Assembly (NCBI RefSeq): GCF_008298015.1
Contig: NZ_VTPX01000011.1
Span: 1-64,000, forward strand
From: Salinicola corii
Lineage (GTDB): Bacteria; Pseudomonadota; Gammaproteobacteria; Pseudomonadales; Halomonadaceae
Direction: 5' to 3'
DNA length: 64,000 bases
The stretch's first letter is position 1; the number at the start of each line of letters is the position of its first letter. Positions 56,289-64,000 of the stretch are shown one piece after another. The notes beneath the pieces were generated by a model, which did no database searches, was not told where the DNA came from, and saw only the letters and a list, made by a program, of their open reading frames with translations. A program made the translations under genes and the position numbers.

Positions 56289-57539
56289 TCAGCTTGTCAT
56301 GCCGTCGAGCGGCCGGGCCGCCAATCGGGACTCGCCCTGGCACTCCTGGGCGCAACGCTCGATTCGCCGGCACGCTTCGCGCAGGCGGTCGGCATCCACG
56401 GTCAGGCTCAGCCGTACGAAGCCCGCGGCGGAAGCGCCGAAGGCCTCGCCCGCGAGTACCGATACGCCATGCTCGTCGAGCAGACGATCGGCGAAGGCAT
56501 GGGTGCTGAGTCCGGTCGCGCGAATGTCGATCATCATGAACATCCCGGCGGCTGGCGGCAGCGTGGCGACGGTCTCGCTGTCGCGCAGCGTATCGACCAC
56601 GGCATCGCGGCGCTGGCGGTAGGTCTCGCGCATCATGTCCAGTGCCGCCGGCGGTGCGTCGAAAGCGGCGATGGCCGCGTCCTGGATGAACGGCTGGCAG
56701 CCGTAGAGCATGCACAGGGCAAGATTGACCAGATGGGCCATCAGCGGCCTCGGGCCGACGACCCAGCCGAGTCGCCAGCCGGTCATGGCGTGAGATTTCG
56801 ACAGGCTGCTGATCACCACGGTACGCTCCGCCATGCCCGGCAGGCTGTCGGGACTGAGGTGCTCGCCGTCGAAGATCAGGTCGGCGTAGACGGCATCGAC
56901 GATCAGCCACAGGTCGTGCTTGCGGCAGAGTGTGGCAATCGTCTCCCACATCGCCGGTGTCAGGCACTGGCCGGTGGGGTTGTGGGGGCTGTTGATCAGG
57001 ATCGCCTTGGTGCGTGGCGTGATCGCCGCTTCGATGTCGGCCGGGCGGGGCTGAAAGCCTTCGTCGGGCGGCAGCGATACCCACACCGGCACCGCCCCGG
57101 TGGACTGAACCACTGCTTCGTAGGTGACATAGGCCGGTTCGGGAATGATCACCTCGTCGCCCGGATCGAGCAGGCACTGTGCCGTGGCGTAGAGACCGCA
57201 CTGCGCGCCAGCGAGTACGGCGACGTGGTCCGCGCTCGTCTCGGGCTGGCCGCCATGGGCACGATGATAGGCCGCGATGCGCTCGCGCAAGGCCTGCTTG
57301 CCCTGCACGTCGGCGTAGTGGGTCACGCCGCGACGCAGACTGTCGACGGCGGCGTCGACGATGGAGGGCGGGGTGTCGAAATCGGGATCGCCGACCGAGA
57401 GGATGATGACGTCTTCGCCACGGGCCTGGCGCGCCTTGGCACGAAAGTGAATGTTCCAGGCGCTGGCGCCCTCGCCGGCGATGCGTTGGGTCAGTTGGGC
57501 ATAGCGGGGAGACACGTGGTGTGGATCGGCTGAACGCAT
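56289..57539 (-). CDS. Class I/II pyridoxal-phosphate aminotransferase
   Basis: A 416-residue fold-type I aminotransferase. PLP contacts include [19 protein letters not shown] and the Schiff-base K248 in [15 protein letters not shown]. It is like aspartate/aromatic or arginine-pyruvate (AruH-like) aminotransferases. Proximity to argC (63 bp downstream on the same strand) allows an arginine link, but the substrate is undetermined. Confidence 0.85.
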
Positions 57540-57702: not shown

Positions 57703-58659
57703 TTACTGCAGGCTGGCTTTCACCGCGTCGAGCGCCGGTCGGCCGTCGCGGGTGGTAATGCCATCAAGGAACTCGGCGACGCGGTCGGGATGATCCTGCA
57801 ACCATTCCCGGGCGACTGCCTCGGCCGAGCGCTCCCGGCGGCCATAGCCGTCGATGAATTCGCTCTGCTCGTCGGCGGTCAGCGTGAACTGCTCGAGCAG
57901 TGCGAGCAGATTGGGATTGGCCTCGGCGAATGCCTTGTTGACGATGGTTCGCACGTCGCTCTTGCCGTTGTCCGGGCTGTAGACCGATTCCGGGTCGTCG
58001 AGAATGTGCATGTCGTAGGCCGGGGTCATCCAGTGCGGCGTCCAGCCGTACCAGACGATCCAGCGCCTGTCATTGAAGGCGGCATCGACCTCCGACAGCA
58101 TGCCCGGCGTCGAGGAGTCGAGAATCTGCCAGTCGCCCAGGCCGTAGACGTTCTGGTCCTGTGCGTCGTGAATGAATGTGCTGACCGTCGAGCCGGATTC
58201 GATCGAGTAGAAGCGTCCATTGAACTGGTCGCGATGCGCATCCAAGTCCTCGGCGCTGTGGACGCCGGCATCGTAGACGTAACCCGGCACCGCGAAGCCC
58301 ATCCGTGCACCGGTGACGTTGTTGCCGAGATCCTCGATCTTGCCGCTGGCCATCGCCTCGTCGTGACTCTCCTGTTGGGCCGGGATCCAGCCGGCCAGGA
58401 ACACATCGCTGTCGCCGGTCTGAAGCGTCTGATAGCCGACTGTACTGCTGACCTCCTGAGTCTCGCTGCCATAGCCGAGCGGTGTGATCAACTGACTGAA
58501 AACCTCGGTCTTGACGGTGACGCCGGGCCAGGGCGGAACGACGAAATTGATGCTGTCGGCCCGATCCTGCGATGGGCTCTGGGCGAGAGCCGCCATCGAT
58601 ACGGTCATCAGCGATAGCGGCAGCAGCGTGGCGGCCACGAGTGCGGGGCGTGGTGTCAT
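57703..58659 (-). CDS. caiX: Glycine betaine/carnitine-type ABC transporter substrate-binding protein (CaiX-like)
   Basis: A 318-residue periplasmic binding protein (OpuAC/ProX type). The signal peptide is cleaved near residue 26 (AALA). Aromatic residues suited to a quaternary-ammonium cage appear in VVPPWPGV, LAGWIPAQ and IVWYGWTPHWM. In Pseudomonas CaiX is the carnitine-binding partner of the Cbc transporter core and lies beside cdhR/cdhC, as here. No permease or ATPase gene is adjacent, so it likely shares a core encoded elsewhere. Confidence 0.85.
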   Translation of the reverse strand: MTPRPALVAATLLPLSLMTVSMAALAQSPSQDRADSINFVVPPWPGVTVKTEVFSQLITPLGYGSETQEVSSTVGYQTLQTGDSDVFLAGWIPAQQESHDEAMASGKIEDLGNNVTGARMGFAVPGYVYDAGVHSAEDLDAHRDQFNGRFYSIESGSTVSTFIHDAQDQNVYGLGDWQILDSSTPGMLSEVDAAFNDRRWIVWYGWTPHWMTPAYDMHILDDPESVYSPDNGKSDVRTIVNKAFAEANPNLLALLEQFTLTADEQSEFIDGYGRRERSAEAVAREWLQDHPDRVAEFLDGITTRDGRPALDAVKASLQ

Positions 58660-58715: not shown

Positions 58716-59294
58716 TCATTCGCTCCGCACGTCGGGCAGCCCGGCGCCCTCGAACGGCGGACGTCCCAGGACTCGTTCGAGTACGGGGCGGAAGTGTTCG
58801 AGAGGCAGCGTGTCGTAGTCGGGATCGAACGAGGTCTGGTCCCATTCGTCACAGAAGCGAACCGTACGTGCGTAGGCAGGGTGGTCGCGAAATGCGTCGC
58901 GAGCGTGGCGATCCAGGCCGTAGAAGTGGCGGTAATGATAGCCTTGGAACAGCTCGTGATGGCGAATCATCCACACATTGTAGGGATCGATGAAGGGTTC
59001 GAGGATCGCGGCGGCGATCTCGGCATGATTGTCCGGTGCCAGATCGTCACCGATATCGTGCAGCAGCGCGCAGACGATGATCTCCTCGTCGGCCCCGGCG
59101 CGCTCGGCGCGGGTCGCGGTCTGCAGGCAGTGGATGTAGCGATCCACCGGGTAGCCGTGGGTGTCGCCCTCGAGACGCAATAGGTGATTGATGACGCGCT
59201 CGACGATGCCCTCGCGGTAGTCGCGAAAGTGCGCATCGATCTTGCACCAGTCATCCGCCTGGCTATGGTCGAACCGGGTAAAAGTGGCGCTCAT
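58716..59294 (-). CDS. HD-domain protein, possible PhnZ/TmpB-like diiron oxygenase
   Basis: A 192-residue HD-superfamily protein. Metal ligands fit the HD oxygenase/MIOX order: H55 (YIHCLQTA), H79-D80 (LLHDIGDD), H90 (DNHAEI), H112/H113 (IRHHELF) and D149 or D152. The spacing H-x23-HD is like that of PhnZ-type mixed-valence diiron oxygenases rather than only phosphohydrolases. The ATG overlaps the stop of the upstream Fe/2OG oxygenase by 4 bp, implying obligate co-translation. The same pairing is known for TmpA/TmpB, which degrade a trimethylammonio-phosphonate. In this carnitine cluster the substrate is unknown. Confidence 0.8.
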   Translation of the reverse strand: MSATFTRFDHSQADDWCKIDAHFRDYREGIVERVINHLLRLEGDTHGYPVDRYIHCLQTATRAERAGADEEIIVCALLHDIGDDLAPDNHAEIAAAILEPFIDPYNVWMIRHHELFQGYHYRHFYGLDRHARDAFRDHPAYARTVRFCDEWDQTSFDPDYDTLPLEHFRPVLERVLGRPPFEGAGLPDVRSE

Positions 59295-60421
59295 GCGGAC
59301 TCCTGAAGCGAGTAAGGTGAGGCACCGATCTGGCGACGTAACGTCAGGCGCCGGCTGGCGGTGGTGTCACGATCGACGTAACCCTGGCGAAGATGGCGAA
59401 TGCCCTGGCTGAGCCGGAAGGCGGTGCGCCCGTGCAGTAGACGGTAGTTATCCATGATCAGCATCTCGCCCGGTGCCAGCTTGGGCGTCAGCGTCAGTTC
59501 CGGCGCGGTAATCAGCGCGAAGAATGCGCGTCGGGCAGCGTAGTAGCGATCCAGTTGCTCGGGCGGCAACGGCGGGACGCGCTCGGTGCGATTGTTGTAG
59601 CGCACCCGGTTCACCTCGCCGCGGGCGTCGAGTTCGATCAGCGGGCCTTCGCTTTCCAGGTGGGCTTCGTCGTCGACGTAGCGGAATCGCGTCGAGGTTC
59701 GGGTCAGGCACTCGAAAGCGTCGGGGTCGTCACGACGCAGGCGCTCGGCGGCCATGAAGCCGTCCGCCAGTGTGCTGTCGCCGCCGCTATCGGCATTGCT
59801 CAGACAGTGCAGCCAGATATAGCCGGGGATCGGGTCGCGATAGGGATTGTCAGTATGCGGCTCGAGTCCGCGCTGGGTCATGGTCAGATCGAACGCCTCG
59901 GCGATCGACTTGACGTCGGCGATGCCGCCCCAGTTGGTCCGGCGCAGCGGTCCGAGGCGCTCCACCAGCGGCATCATGCCATCCAGCGTCAGCGGTACGC
60001 TGCTGACCTTGACGAAACCGTAGCGCTCGAGCGATTCGAGCATCTCCGCCAGGGCATCGTCGCTCTTTAGCGCGTGGGTGAAATCGGCACTCGGCATCCT
60101 GGTCAGCGAGGCATCCCAGCGCTCATGTACGGCGTCGGCTGGCCATTCGCGATCAAGATCATGCAGGGCAAAGCGGGCTTGATGACCATCGCTGAAGGTC
60201 AGTTCGATCTTCTCGCCATCGCAACCTGCCTCGACCAGCGCCAGATCCAGTGGCAGGGCGGCGGCCTCGATCAGCCGCTGGCCGGTGCGTGGATCGAGAG
60301 TTTCCGCATCGGGGGCGCGCTCGCGTAGCCACAGCGCGTGGAAGCGCGTTTCCCGACTTCCCTCGACGACTCGCAGTTGGCGAGCGTAGGTGCCGGGGAT
60401 GATTTCGACGAAAACGTCCAT
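59291..60421 (-). CDS. Gamma-butyrobetaine-hydroxylase-like Fe(II)/2-oxoglutarate oxygenase
   Basis: A 376-residue TauD/GBBH-family oxygenase. The iron facial triad is H189-x-D191 (EPHTDNPY) and H330 (LLHGRTAF), with GIRHLRQGY contributing the 2-oxoglutarate Arg. The N-terminal DUF971-like domain keeps FHALWLRERAPD and TGQRL but lacks the Cys ligands of the structural zinc found in many GBBHs. True GBBH makes L-carnitine from gamma-butyrobetaine, which fits the cdh genes nearby. TmpA, a phosphonate hydroxylase, is a close relative. It is divergent from cdhR (95 bp) and coupled to the HD gene. Confidence 0.85.
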   Translation of the reverse strand: MDVFVEIIPGTYARQLRVVEGSRETRFHALWLRERAPDAETLDPRTGQRLIEAAALPLDLALVEAGCDGEKIELTFSDGHQARFALHDLDREWPADAVHERWDASLTRMPSADFTHALKSDDALAEMLESLERYGFVKVSSVPLTLDGMMPLVERLGPLRRTNWGGIADVKSIAEAFDLTMTQRGLEPHTDNPYRDPIPGYIWLHCLSNADSGGDSTLADGFMAAERLRRDDPDAFECLTRTSTRFRYVDDEAHLESEGPLIELDARGEVNRVRYNNRTERVPPLPPEQLDRYYAARRAFFALITAPELTLTPKLAPGEMLIMDNYRLLHGRTAFRLSQGIRHLRQGYVDRDTTASRRLTLRRQIGASPYSLQESA

Positions 60422-60516: not shown

Positions 60517-61536
60517 ATGACCGATCATTCAACGCCGAAATGGCTCTATCCCCGCCCCGATCTCCCGCCCGTGCTCTCGCCCGAAGAGGCGGATGTCACG
60601 GTCAACCTGTGGCTCCTGCCAAAATTCTCGATGCTGACGCTTTATTGCCTGCTCGAGCCGCTGCGCGTCGCCAATCGATTCGGACGCTCGCTGTTCGCGT
60701 GGCGGTTGTTTTCCAACGATGGCGGGCCGGTGACCGCCAGTAACGGCGTGACCGTCGATATCGATGCGGCACTGGGGCGAGCGCCGATCTTCGATAACCT
60801 GTTCATCGTGGCATCGTACGAGGCCGAGGCGACGGTGGCTTCGTCGCAGTGGGCGGTGTTGCGCCAGGTCGCGGCCCACGGCGGTCTGCTCGCGGCGCTG
60901 GAGACGGGAGCGTTCATTCTGGCTCGGGCCGGGCTGCTCGATGGTTTCGAAGTGGCCCTGCACTGGGAGAGCGCACCGGCCTTCGTGGAGGAGTTTCCCG
61001 ACCTCACCTTGAGCGACGCCCGTTACCGGTTCGATCGCCAGCGTCTGACGGGTGGCGGTGGCGCGGCCAGTCTCGATCTGATGATGGCTTTCATCGAGCG
61101 CGAGCACGGGGCCAATCTGGTCGCGGCACTGAGCCGCCAACTGGTGCACTCGCGTCTGGATCCGCGCATCGAGGTAAATGCCGGGAGGGAGGTCGGCTCG
61201 GAGTATCACCCCCGAAGCGTACGCCGGGCGGAGGCGATCATGGAGGCCAATCTGGCGCAGCCATTGATGATTCCCGACATCTGCCGACGGGTCGGCCAGT
61301 CCCAGCGCCAGCTCAACCGGCTCTTCCAGCGTTATCGCGGCGAAACGGCGAAAGGCCGCTATCTGTCGCTGCGACTCGACCGGGCTCGGCAGATTCTCGC
61401 CGATAGCCGAACCAGCGTGACCCAGGCTGCGCTGGCGGTAGGGTTCGCTCAGCCAGCGCATTTTTCCCGGGTCTATCGGGAACGGTTCGGCGAGTCGCCG
61501 CGAACCACGGCACAGCGGGGCAGAGGGTTGTCGTAA
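60517..61536 (+). CDS. cdhR: GlxA/AraC-family carnitine catabolism regulator CdhR
   Basis: A 339-residue regulator with a class I glutamine-amidotransferase-like (DJ-1/PfpI) sensor domain (about 20-185) and a C-terminal AraC DNA-binding domain (PDICRRVGQSQRQLNRLFQR and ALAVGFAQPAHFSRVYRERF). CdhR of Pseudomonas activates cdhCAB in response to carnitine. It lies between the divergent oxygenase and cdhC, as that role predicts. ATG 60517 has no good ribosome site. A strong AGGAGG occurs ~50 nt upstream, so an upstream start such as TTG 60481 is possible. Confidence 0.87.
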   Translation: MTDHSTPKWLYPRPDLPPVLSPEEADVTVNLWLLPKFSMLTLYCLLEPLRVANRFGRSLFAWRLFSNDGGPVTASNGVTVDIDAALGRAPIFDNLFIVASYEAEATVASSQWAVLRQVAAHGGLLAALETGAFILARAGLLDGFEVALHWESAPAFVEEFPDLTLSDARYRFDRQRLTGGGGAASLDLMMAFIEREHGANLVAALSRQLVHSRLDPRIEVNAGREVGSEYHPRSVRRAEAIMEANLAQPLMIPDICRRVGQSQRQLNRLFQRYRGETAKGRYLSLRLDRARQILADSRTSVTQAALAVGFAQPAHFSRVYRERFGESPRTTAQRGRGLS

Positions 61537-61678: not shown

Positions 61679-62560
61679 ATGAATCGCGACGTCATCCTGA
61701 CCTGTGCCGTTACCGGCGCTGGCGATACCGCCGGCAAACACCCGGACCTGCCGATCACGCCCAGGCAGATCGCCGATAGCGCGCTGGACGCCGCCCGTGC
61801 CGGTGCGAGCATCGTTCATCTCCACGTGCGCGATCCGGAAACTGGCGGCGTCAGCCACTCGACCGATCACTTCCGCGAGGTGGTCGAGCGCATCCGCGAG
61901 TCCGACGTGGACGCGGTTATCAATATCACTGCCGGTGGTGGTGGCGACCTGTTTCCCGAAATTCGCAACGGCGTGATCCACGGGCTCGAGGGCACCGACC
62001 TGCAGACGGCGGCGGAGCGTCATCACCCGGTGGGTGAGTTGCTGCCGGAACTCTGCACGCTGGACTGCGGCAGCCTCAATTTCGGCGACATGGTCTACCT
62101 CAACACCGCCGACTGGCTGCGCGAACATGCGCGGTTGATCCAGCAGGCCGGGGTCAAGCCGGAGCTCGAGTGCTTCGATCTCGGCCACGTCTGGTTCGCA
62201 CGTCAGCTGGTCGAGGAGGGGCTGATCGACGGCGACCCGCTGTTCCAGCTCTGCCTGGGGATTCCCTGGGGCGCCGAGGCCGACACCGAGACCATGCTGG
62301 CGATGCGCAACAAGCTGCCGGAAAACGCGATCTGGTCGGCGTTCGGCATCGGCCGCCAGCAGTTCCCGATGGCGGCGCAGTCGATGATCATGGGCGGGCA
62401 CATGCGGGTCGGCCTGGAGGACAATCTCTACCTGAGCAAAGGCGTCTTCGCCACCAACGCCCAACTGGTCGAGCGTGCCGCCACCATCGTCGAAAACCTG
62501 GGCGGCAAGGTGCAGACGCCGGCCCAGACGCGGGAGTCGCTCGCGCTGCGCAAGCCCTGA
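61679..62560 (+). CDS. cdhC: 3-dehydrocarnitine:acetyl-CoA trimethylamine-forming cleavage enzyme (BKACE family)
   Basis: A 293-residue zinc-dependent beta-keto acid cleavage enzyme (DUF849). Zinc ligands H47 and H49 lie in [12 protein letters not shown], and the family tail [13 protein letters not shown] is present. In carnitine degradation it condenses 3-dehydrocarnitine with acetyl-CoA, giving acetoacetate and betainyl-CoA. AGAGGATCTC precedes the ATG. The order cdhR-cdhC-cdhA-cdhB is that of Pseudomonas aeruginosa. A 142-bp hairpin element follows its stop. Confidence 0.92.
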
Positions 62561-62702: not shown

Positions 62703-62809
62703 TAGCTGCTTGAACCTCTAGCGCGTCGCTCGCTTCGCCCATCGCGATCGCGCGCTCGATGCCGCTGAGCGTGCGGTTTCACATCTTTCCTTATTCCCGC
62801 GAGGTATCC

Positions 62810-63781
62810 ATGACTACTTCCGAACTTCCCCGCAACGTTGCCGTGATCGGCACCGGCGTGATCGGCAACGGCTGGATCGCCCGGGCGCTGGCGGCCGGCT
62901 GCCGGGTGACCGCTTTCGACCCTGACGCCACGGCCCCCGAGCGCACCCGCGCTTTCGTCGCGCGTGCCTGGCCGGCGCTGGAGCGGCTGGGGCTTGCCGA
63001 TGACGCCGATCCCGAGGCGCTGACCTTCGTCAATTCCATCGAGGCCGCGGTCCAGGGCGCCGAGCTGATCCAGGAGAACGTGCCCGAACGGCTGGCGCTC
63101 AAGCATGACGTGCTGAGCCAGCTCGATGCACTGGCGGCGCCGGGGGTGGTGATCGGCTCGTCAACATCCGGCATCAAGCCGAGCGATCTGCAGTCGGCCT
63201 GTACTCGCGAGCCCGGCCGCGTGATCGTGGCGCATCCGTTCAATCCGGTCTATCTGCTGCCGTTGGTGGAACTGGTCGGCGGCGAGCACTCGACACCCGC
63301 GGTGCTCGAGCGCGCTCAGGAGCAGTACGCCGCGCTGGGTATGCGCCCGCTGGTGGTACGGCGCGAGATCGAAGGTCACGTGGCCGATCGCCTGATGGAA
63401 GCGCTGTGGCGCGAGGCGCTGCATCTGGTCAACGATGGGGTCGCCACCACCGAGGAGATCGACGCGGCGGTGGTCTACGGCTGCGGTCTGCGCTGGTCGC
63501 TGATGGGAACCTTCCTGACTTTCCATCTGGCCGGCGGCGACGGCGGCATGCGCCATATGCTGCACCAGTTCGGCCCGGCGTTGAAACTGCCGTGGACCAA
63601 GCTGGAGGCGCCGGAGCTGACCGAGGAGCTGATCGAGAAGGTCGCCGATGGCTGCGAGCATCAGGCTGCCGGACGCAGCGTCGCCGAGCTCGAAACGCGC
63701 CGCGACGCGTTTCTCACCGAGCTGCTCGAACTGACCCAGAAATATTGGCCGGAGGCCGAAGGGCTCCAGGGCCGAATTTGA
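62810..63781 (+). CDS. cdhA: L-carnitine 3-dehydrogenase
   Basis: A 323-residue NAD-dependent dehydrogenase of the 3-hydroxyacyl-CoA dehydrogenase fold. The dinucleotide motif AVIGTGVIGNGWIARAL is N-terminal, and the catalytic His-Glu region is IVAHPFNPVYLLPLVELV. It oxidises carnitine to 3-dehydrocarnitine, the substrate of cdhC. GAGG lies 7 nt upstream of ATG 62810. It lies after the palindromic element and 17 bp before cdhB, with a likely single transcript. Confidence 0.92.
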   Translation: MTTSELPRNVAVIGTGVIGNGWIARALAAGCRVTAFDPDATAPERTRAFVARAWPALERLGLADDADPEALTFVNSIEAAVQGAELIQENVPERLALKHDVLSQLDALAAPGVVIGSSTSGIKPSDLQSACTREPGRVIVAHPFNPVYLLPLVELVGGEHSTPAVLERAQEQYAALGMRPLVVRREIEGHVADRLMEALWREALHLVNDGVATTEEIDAAVVYGCGLRWSLMGTFLTFHLAGGDGGMRHMLHQFGPALKLPWTKLEAPELTEELIEKVADGCEHQAAGRSVAELETRRDAFLTELLELTQKYWPEAEGLQGRI

Positions 63782-63798: not shown

Positions 63799-64000
63799 AT
63801 GAACACGATGTCGGACGATCCGTTGTTCAACACCCGGGTGGAGGACGCCTGGGTCGACTACAATGGCCACATGAACGACGCCGAGTACGCGCGCGTGTTC
63901 TCACTGGCGGTGGAGGCGCTGATGGAGTGTATCGGTCTCGACGAGGCCGGTCGCGCCGAGCACGGCTACACGATCTACACCCTTGAGACGCATCTCTGCT
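63799..64000 (+). CDS. cdhB: Acyl-CoA thioesterase (betainyl-CoA thioesterase), 5' part only
   Basis: The first 67 codons of a hotdog-fold thioesterase, cut by the window edge. The motif VDYNGHMNDAEYARVFSLA matches carnitine-cluster thioesterases that release glycine betaine from betainyl-CoA. GAGG lies ~9 nt upstream of ATG 63799, and an ATG at 63808 is an alternative. Position after cdhA supports cdhB. The rest of the gene is not visible. Confidence 0.85.
   Translation, partial: MNTMSDDPLFNTRVEDAWVDYNGHMNDAEYARVFSLAVEALMECIGLDEAGRAEHGYTIYTLETHLC

Follow-up and report, generated by a model that had tools for sequence, protein, structure and literature searches.

The window, the whole 64,000-nucleotide stretch of DNA from the halophile Salinicola corii analysed here (positions 1 to 64,000 of its contig), carries two overlapping genes on its reverse strand. 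The upstream one, referred to here as OX (59291..60421, a 376-aa open reading frame), encodes an Fe(II)/2-oxoglutarate (2OG) oxygenase of the GBBH/TmpA superfamily, and the downstream one, HD (58716..59294, 192 aa), a predicted HD-domain diiron oxygenase. The OX stop and the HD start have the nucleotides ATGA in common (59291..59294, reverse strand) – a 4-bp overlap of the kind associated with translational coupling, and one that an earlier reading of the DNA, made from the sequence alone, had correctly described. Of 20 close homologous loci, all with an HD of 69% identity or more, 14 show the same −4 overlap, and because the pair is kept in 27 of the 61 family genomes, its occurrence is more than chance.

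On the same strand, the pair is followed by a third gene of the module, encoding a caiX-like periplasmic binding protein of the OpuAC/choline–carnitine type (57703..58659), and further downstream by a class I/II aminotransferase gene (56289..57539) of uncertain membership, which was dropped as a firm part of the module, as its ortholog adjoins the genes for the beta-keto acid cleavage enzyme (BKACE) and cdhA in genomes without the OX–HD pair (L179–L181). Divergent from OX, on the forward strand, lies AraC-A (about 60517..61536), an AraC-family, GATase-1-like regulator gene, and beyond it, on the same strand, are the pathway partners cdhC (BKACE, 61679..62560), cdhA (L-carnitine 3-dehydrogenase, 62759..63781) and the thioesterase gene cdhB, which crosses the window end (contig 63817..64236, with 63817..64000 in the window). 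Gene calls thus bear out the earlier claim that the pair adjoins a caiX-like gene and cdhC, cdhA and cdhB, but not the claim that the divergent regulator is cdhR: AraC-A was never found without the pair, whereas its paralog AraC-B (contig about 65.6–66.6 kb) is retained alongside the cdh genes where a genome has no pair, and the divergent gene is probably not CdhR. Compared with the Pseudomonas aeruginosa cdhR/caiX–cdhCAB cluster, with which it shares the caiX-like protein, BKACE, carnitine dehydrogenase, thioesterase and a GATase-1-type AraC regulator, the cluster described here adds the OX–HD pair, a second AraC regulator and a GBBH-like enzyme.

This last enzyme, c5 (contig 64292–65545, reverse strand), is encoded beyond the window, between cdhB and AraC-B, about 4 kb from the OX–HD pair and in the same cluster. 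It has GBBH-type motifs and scores 306–328 bits, under the cut-off, against the GBBH model TIGR02409; its similarity makes it a candidate gamma-butyrobetaine hydroxylase. With what we take to be the Pseudomonas AK1 GBBH sequence, c5 shares 39% identity and OX about 33%, figures that serve as a lead only. The same genome also encodes a third GBBH-superfamily oxygenase on another contig (L163:8474-10806, contig C22). This protein scores 334 bits against TIGR02409 and has the motif NNW, and its gene adjoins another caiX-like binding protein gene and a LysR gene.

In Pfam, the HD protein matches the generic HD domain alone. The metal ligands proposed for it by the sequence-only reading stand in the main: H55, H79, D80, H90, H113 and D152 do not vary across 14 diverse homologs and align with the ligands of TmpB and PhnZ, while two further candidates, H112 and D149, vary. 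TmpB (8e-7) and PhnZ are also its best solved relatives by sequence. When an AlphaFold model of HD (built from 14 homologs; mean pLDDT 91.8) was compared with the PDB, all ten matches with E of 0.001 or below were to TmpB (1.4e-6) or PhnZ, the next fold was that of myo-inositol oxygenase (MIOX; probability 1.0, E 0.06), and HD hydrolase folds scored far below these three. From these matches, HD is, as judged on its predicted structure, of the oxygenase kind and not an ordinary phosphohydrolase. The comparison with TmpB, PhnZ and MIOX that had been proposed for this protein, by alignment and predicted structure, came out in favour of an oxygenase-type fold with all six ligands.

Nonetheless, on the evidence of its residues HD is not TmpB but forms a separate clade. 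Y45 and E48 of the YxxE loop, H83, K117 and R149 (in window numbering) are present in every TmpB and PhnZ examined – three TmpBs adjoining TmpA (L164–L166) and four PhnZ-type proteins – and in no protein of the new clade, which has instead R52, D83 and F116–Q117, with one distant outlier (L067; Q52, K83); F156 and D157 are further invariants of the clade. The window HD protein reads T45-H-G-Y48 at the YxxE site and has D83, Q117 and D149 instead of the H of HDxGH, the K of HxxxK and the R. Three of the residues lost in the new clade presumably correspond to those that bind phosphonate in PhnZ (H62, K108 and R158). A review describes the YxxE loop as characteristic of PhnZ and TmpB, where it controls O2 access and keeps the substrate in place (PMC8177086). 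The split between the new clade and TmpB/PhnZ has 100/100 support, with the branching order inside the clade unresolved, and HD misses both relevant NCBIfam models by a wide distance (TIGR03276, 46.6 bits, cut-off 214.6; NF049941, 45 bits, cut-off 300).

The OX protein shows a similar mixture of kinship and departure. The HTD...H triad noted earlier is confirmed as H189, D191 and H330, all invariant. OX passes the NCBIfam TmpA model NF049936 (423 bits, cut-off 400) and misses both the GBBH model TIGR02409 (262 bits, cut-off 414.75) – a weak test for bacteria, its cut-off being reached in 0 of 274 genomes of the class – and the trimethyllysine hydroxylase (TMLD) model TIGR02410 (173 bits, cut-off 268). 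A maximum-likelihood tree groups OX with a second OX type, one that accompanies LysR regulators, in a clade (support 93/88) that is sister to TmpA (join 91/89) and not inside the TmpA clade, with the GBBH-like proteins outside. The relationship to TmpA and GBBH claimed for OX is thereby upheld and made more precise, as a sister position to TmpA and not a place with the GBBH-like proteins. NF049936 would name OX a 2-trimethylaminoethylphosphonate dioxygenase; this is probably an over-annotation, and users of NCBIfam should be warned that the phosphonate label of this oxygenase is probably wrong.

A Foldseek search with the OX model returned TmpA, then BBOX, then DfmD, yet the model is weaker than that of HD (pLDDT 74, with loop 174–196 below 50) and too weak for judging the substrate pocket, which is better approached through alignment. 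The phosphonate contacts of TmpA are N187, N287 and R288 (DfmD paper, PMC9296572); the last two are kept in the window OX as N277 and R278, whereas N187 is replaced by D178 in every OX of both OX–HD pair types. Trimethyllysine hydroxylase (TMLH) uses D231 together with a cage of W221, Y217 and Y234 (PMC7764450), and with its numbering shifted uniformly by 40 relative to human BBOX (Y177, W181, N191, Y194, H202 and D204), TMLH D231 coincides with OX D178. The main OX type, defined by W164, A168, D178 and M181, has lost part of the cation cage, A168 and M181 occupying the positions of TMLH W221 and Y234. If this makes the cation pocket larger, the protein may be suited to a substrate with a greater distance between nitrogen and hydroxylated carbon than in the TmpA substrate. 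The second pair type (L053, L054, L055, L057, L058, L059, L061 and L066), with an F/F/D/Y cage and the arginine kept, is mostly accompanied by a LysR gene and shows no dependence on the GBBH-like gene; its substrate may, by analogy, be a shorter betaine, e.g. beta-alanine betaine.

Among characterised systems, the closest parallel is TmpA/TmpB of Leisingera caerulea (PDB 6npb and 6npa), where a GBBH-superfamily Fe/2OG gene likewise stands beside a gene for a small HD diiron oxygenase. These proteins are the best sequence and fold matches of the window pair, which shares with them N277 and R278 of OX and all six HD ligands. The differences are equally consistent: HD lacks YxxE, H, K and R and has R52, D83 and Q117, and OX has D178 for N187, a remodelled cage and a tie to a GBBH-like gene. 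PhnY/PhnZ, acting on 2-aminoethylphosphonate, offers the same two-step logic and the same HD fold, but the PhnZ phosphonate-type residues are absent here, and PhnY belongs to a different, PhyH-type 2OG family. MIOX, a C–C cleaving HD oxygenase that also lacks YxxE, is a weaker fold match, is larger, acts on a sugar and has no hydroxylase partner. Gamma-butyrobetaine and trimethyllysine hydroxylases share the OX superfamily – and, for TMLH, the aspartate position – but differ in that the OX clade is sister to TmpA, scores under both cut-offs and is paired with HD. The earlier description as a TmpA/TmpB-like pair of hydroxylase and HD oxygenase therefore holds for fold, sister-clade position and ligands; the pair probably works like TmpA/TmpB but is not TmpA/TmpB, and is a novel variant of this pairing.

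The distribution of the pair gives a further indication of its role. Of 61 family genomes, 27 have a close HD ortholog (71% identity or more) and exactly these 27 have c5 (61% or more), none having only the pair or only c5; cdhA is found in 38, namely all 27 pair genomes and 11 with neither pair nor c5. Most pair-free genomes of the genus still carry the cdh genes but lack both their flanks, the pair with its AraC gene to one side and c5 to the other. Linkage alone does not explain this co-occurrence, because in one genome assembled as a single contig (G045) the pair, c5 and cdhA are unlinked, at 0.24, 1.88 and 2.50 Mb, respectively. The naive Fisher value for pair and c5 is about 6e-18, only indicative given that the genomes are related. 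The neighbourhood analysis with and without cdh genes that had been suggested thus shows the pair following c5, not cdh, and ties it to gamma-butyrobetaine (GBB) metabolism and not to phosphonate breakdown. On the simplest reading, the pair makes what c5 consumes, namely gamma-butyrobetaine.

Relatives carry the module in several versions. The smallest (L043 and L044) consist of the AraC gene, OX–HD and the binding protein alone, and since this binding protein is of the betaine type, the imported substrate looks like a betaine. Among 20 loci, larger versions add an AruI-type 2-oxo acid decarboxylase in 11 (791 bits, cut-off 500), an ABC importer of the lysine/arginine/ornithine type in 9–10 and sometimes an aldehyde dehydrogenase, and an aminotransferase is present in 14. 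The decarboxylase was also considered as a glyoxylate carboligase, an assignment disfavoured by its score (222 bits, versus 791 for the AruI subfamily). A second AruI-like paralog is found elsewhere, beside apparent guanidinobutyrase/agmatinase-type and aldehyde dehydrogenase genes, i.e. in the usual arginine set. In the window's genus, neither decarboxylase nor importer was found at the OX–HD locus.

Our favoured, if still tentative, explanation is that OX, HD and the caiX-like protein form a separately regulated module for making GBB; its substrate would be a longer trimethylammonio acid, with delta-valerobetaine (5-trimethylammoniovalerate) the likeliest candidate. TmpA/TmpB logic runs from R-CH2-PO3 through R-CH(OH)-PO3 to R-COO and phosphate; applied to R-CH2-COO, it would give R-CH(OH)-COO and then R-COO and CO2, a one-carbon shortening. 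OX would hydroxylate the carbon adjacent to the carboxylate, and HD, presumably mixed-valent diiron like TmpB, PhnZ and MIOX, would chelate the 2-hydroxy acid and cleave C1–C2 with O2, releasing an acid one carbon shorter and CO2 (or formate). From delta-valerobetaine this would yield GBB, which c5 would convert to carnitine, and CdhA, CdhC and CdhB would then take carnitine to glycine betaine. Bacteria make delta-valerobetaine from trimethyllysine via DavB/DavA (PMC11773067); the importer, aminotransferase, AruI-like decarboxylase and occasional aldehyde dehydrogenase of the relatives would be expected if trimethyllysine were converted to valerobetaine there, and the transaminase/AruI/aldehyde dehydrogenase set would be another way to it.

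The gene pair, the fold class and ligands, the clade separation and the co-occurrence with the GBBH-like gene are observed; we infer the diiron oxygenase activity, alpha-hydroxylation, C–C cleavage, substrate identity and pathway direction. For GBB formation from a longer betaine speak the HD fold and ligands; an OX that is sister to TmpA, keeps R278 and is not the local GBBH; the co-occurrence with c5 even where unlinked; the minimal OX–HD–binding-protein loci; the added decarboxylase, importer and aminotransferase, with arginine having its own AruI-like gene elsewhere; and solo HD genes behind Mpo1-like genes, whose family includes a dioxygenase of 2-hydroxy fatty acid alpha-oxidation. Against it stand D178, which hints at an alpha-amino substrate and whose site is occupied by Asn or Ser in relatives that bind a carboxylate or phosphonate; the lost cage aromatics (A168, M181), which leave a trimethylammonium ligand not assured; the window's genus, whose locus lacks decarboxylase and importer and whose aminotransferase can occur without the pair; three loci (L047, L068 and L086) with the importer but neither decarboxylase nor aminotransferase in the same stretch; and the assignment of c5, made by similarity and below the TIGR02409 cut-off. 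Our literature search found no description of an HD oxygenase acting on a 2-hydroxy monocarboxylic acid or of an enzyme for the one-carbon shortening of a betaine such as delta-valerobetaine.

It is D178 that favours the main competitor, an unlikely but serious one, in which OX serves as a bacterial trimethyllysine 3-hydroxylase and its product, 3-hydroxytrimethyllysine, is split oxidatively by HD between C2 and C3 into GBB, glyoxylate and ammonia, so that the aldolase and aldehyde dehydrogenase used by eukaryotes would not be needed. Its end product is also GBB, so that the co-occurrence with a GBBH-like gene fits equally, and the two schemes predict different co-products. The coincidence of Asp178 with TMLH Asp231, the invariant Asp83 near the HD site, the loci with a basic-amino-acid importer but no decarboxylase and a glyoxylate-reductase-like gene after the pair in L033 all agree with trimethyllysine use. 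However, OX lacks cage residues that TMLH keeps (W221 and Y234 become A and M), the AruI-type decarboxylase would be left without a role, and the core binding protein is of the betaine and not the amino-acid type. Less probable again is the formation by OX of a vicinal diol from carnitine or a relative, cleaved by HD in MIOX-like fashion to glycine betaine and glyoxylate so as to bypass CdhA, CdhC and CdhB; the pair does lie in a carnitine cluster, and such diol chemistry is known for the fold (PMC8177086), but the pair follows c5 and not cdh, 11 cdhA genomes lack it, and the bypass would be redundant because every pair genome already has cdhA.

The phosphonate branch that the sequence-only reading had entertained, with 2-trimethylammonioethylphosphonate converted to glycine betaine and phosphate by a true TmpA/TmpB, now seems highly improbable; the HD residues, the model scores, the clade and the genomic context all led to its rejection. 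Although OX passes the TmpA model and keeps Arg288, and TmpA and TmpB are the best PDB matches, HD reaches only 45–47 bits where 215–300 are needed and lacks YxxE, H, K and R, OX has Asp at Asn187, the flanking genes include none recognised as a phosphonate transporter, and the tie to a GBBH-like gene would be left unexplained. The least probable account makes OX the organism's GBBH and HD an unrelated co-transcribed phosphohydrolase. HD proteins are mostly phosphohydrolases, and OX does resemble the presumed bacterial GBBH; yet c5, which is closer to that sequence, lies next door and the two co-occur, the HD fold and ligands are oxygenase-type, and the pair is kept in two OX subtypes and apparently in SAR324. 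OX as GBBH was rejected in view of the exact co-occurrence with a separate GBBH-like gene, and HD as a phosphohydrolase is disfavoured by fold and ligands. The earlier suspicion that OX is not simply a carnitine-making GBBH thus gains support from c5, and its other suggestion, an unreported diiron oxidation of a carnitine-related compound, is favoured in a refined form, as a GBB-making step.

The HD clade extends well beyond this pairing. At least 584 related stretches were confirmed in a GTDB scan, mostly from Proteobacteria, and many HDs of the clade have no OX beside them. Of 80 named loci, 29, from Pseudomonas and relatives, have a solo HD gene directly behind a PF06127 Mpo1-like gene, after a gap of 23–186 bp (e.g. 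L101:9572-9964; all among L091–L153), an adjacency that suggests a link to 2-hydroxy fatty acid alpha-oxidation, the process ascribed to yeast Mpo1 (Seki et al. 2019, as cited in PMC13332142 and PMC9624242). Other solo HD genes stand beside a class II aldolase/adducin gene (L050, L064, L106, L117, L121, L128 and L129), several with a CRP-like regulator. A SAR324 metagenome-assembled genome (L093:1-5639) has in one run genes for a class II aldolase, a GBBH-superfamily oxygenase, HD, a PhyH oxygenase and a GbcA-like Rieske oxygenase; the oxygenase beside HD there has Asn, not Asp, at the key site.

Somewhat more tentatively still, it is possible that this widespread clade carries out C–C cleavage of 2-hydroxy acids (alpha-oxidation) and not C–P cleavage and that, in halomonads, it has joined with its own GBBH-superfamily hydroxylase to take delta-valerobetaine, and so trimethyllysine, to gamma-butyrobetaine and carnitine. 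Hydrolase is the usual annotation of HD proteins, and a 2020 review lists just three characterised HD oxygenases, MIOX, PhnZ and TmpB; a large sister clade that has the same ligands but clamps its substrate differently is a sign of oxygenase chemistry beyond these three. No bacterial breakdown enzyme for delta-valerobetaine, a microbiome-derived metabolite linked to obesity, was found in the literature. If the proposed pathway is true, the module would both generate gamma-butyrobetaine in bacteria and remove delta-valerobetaine.
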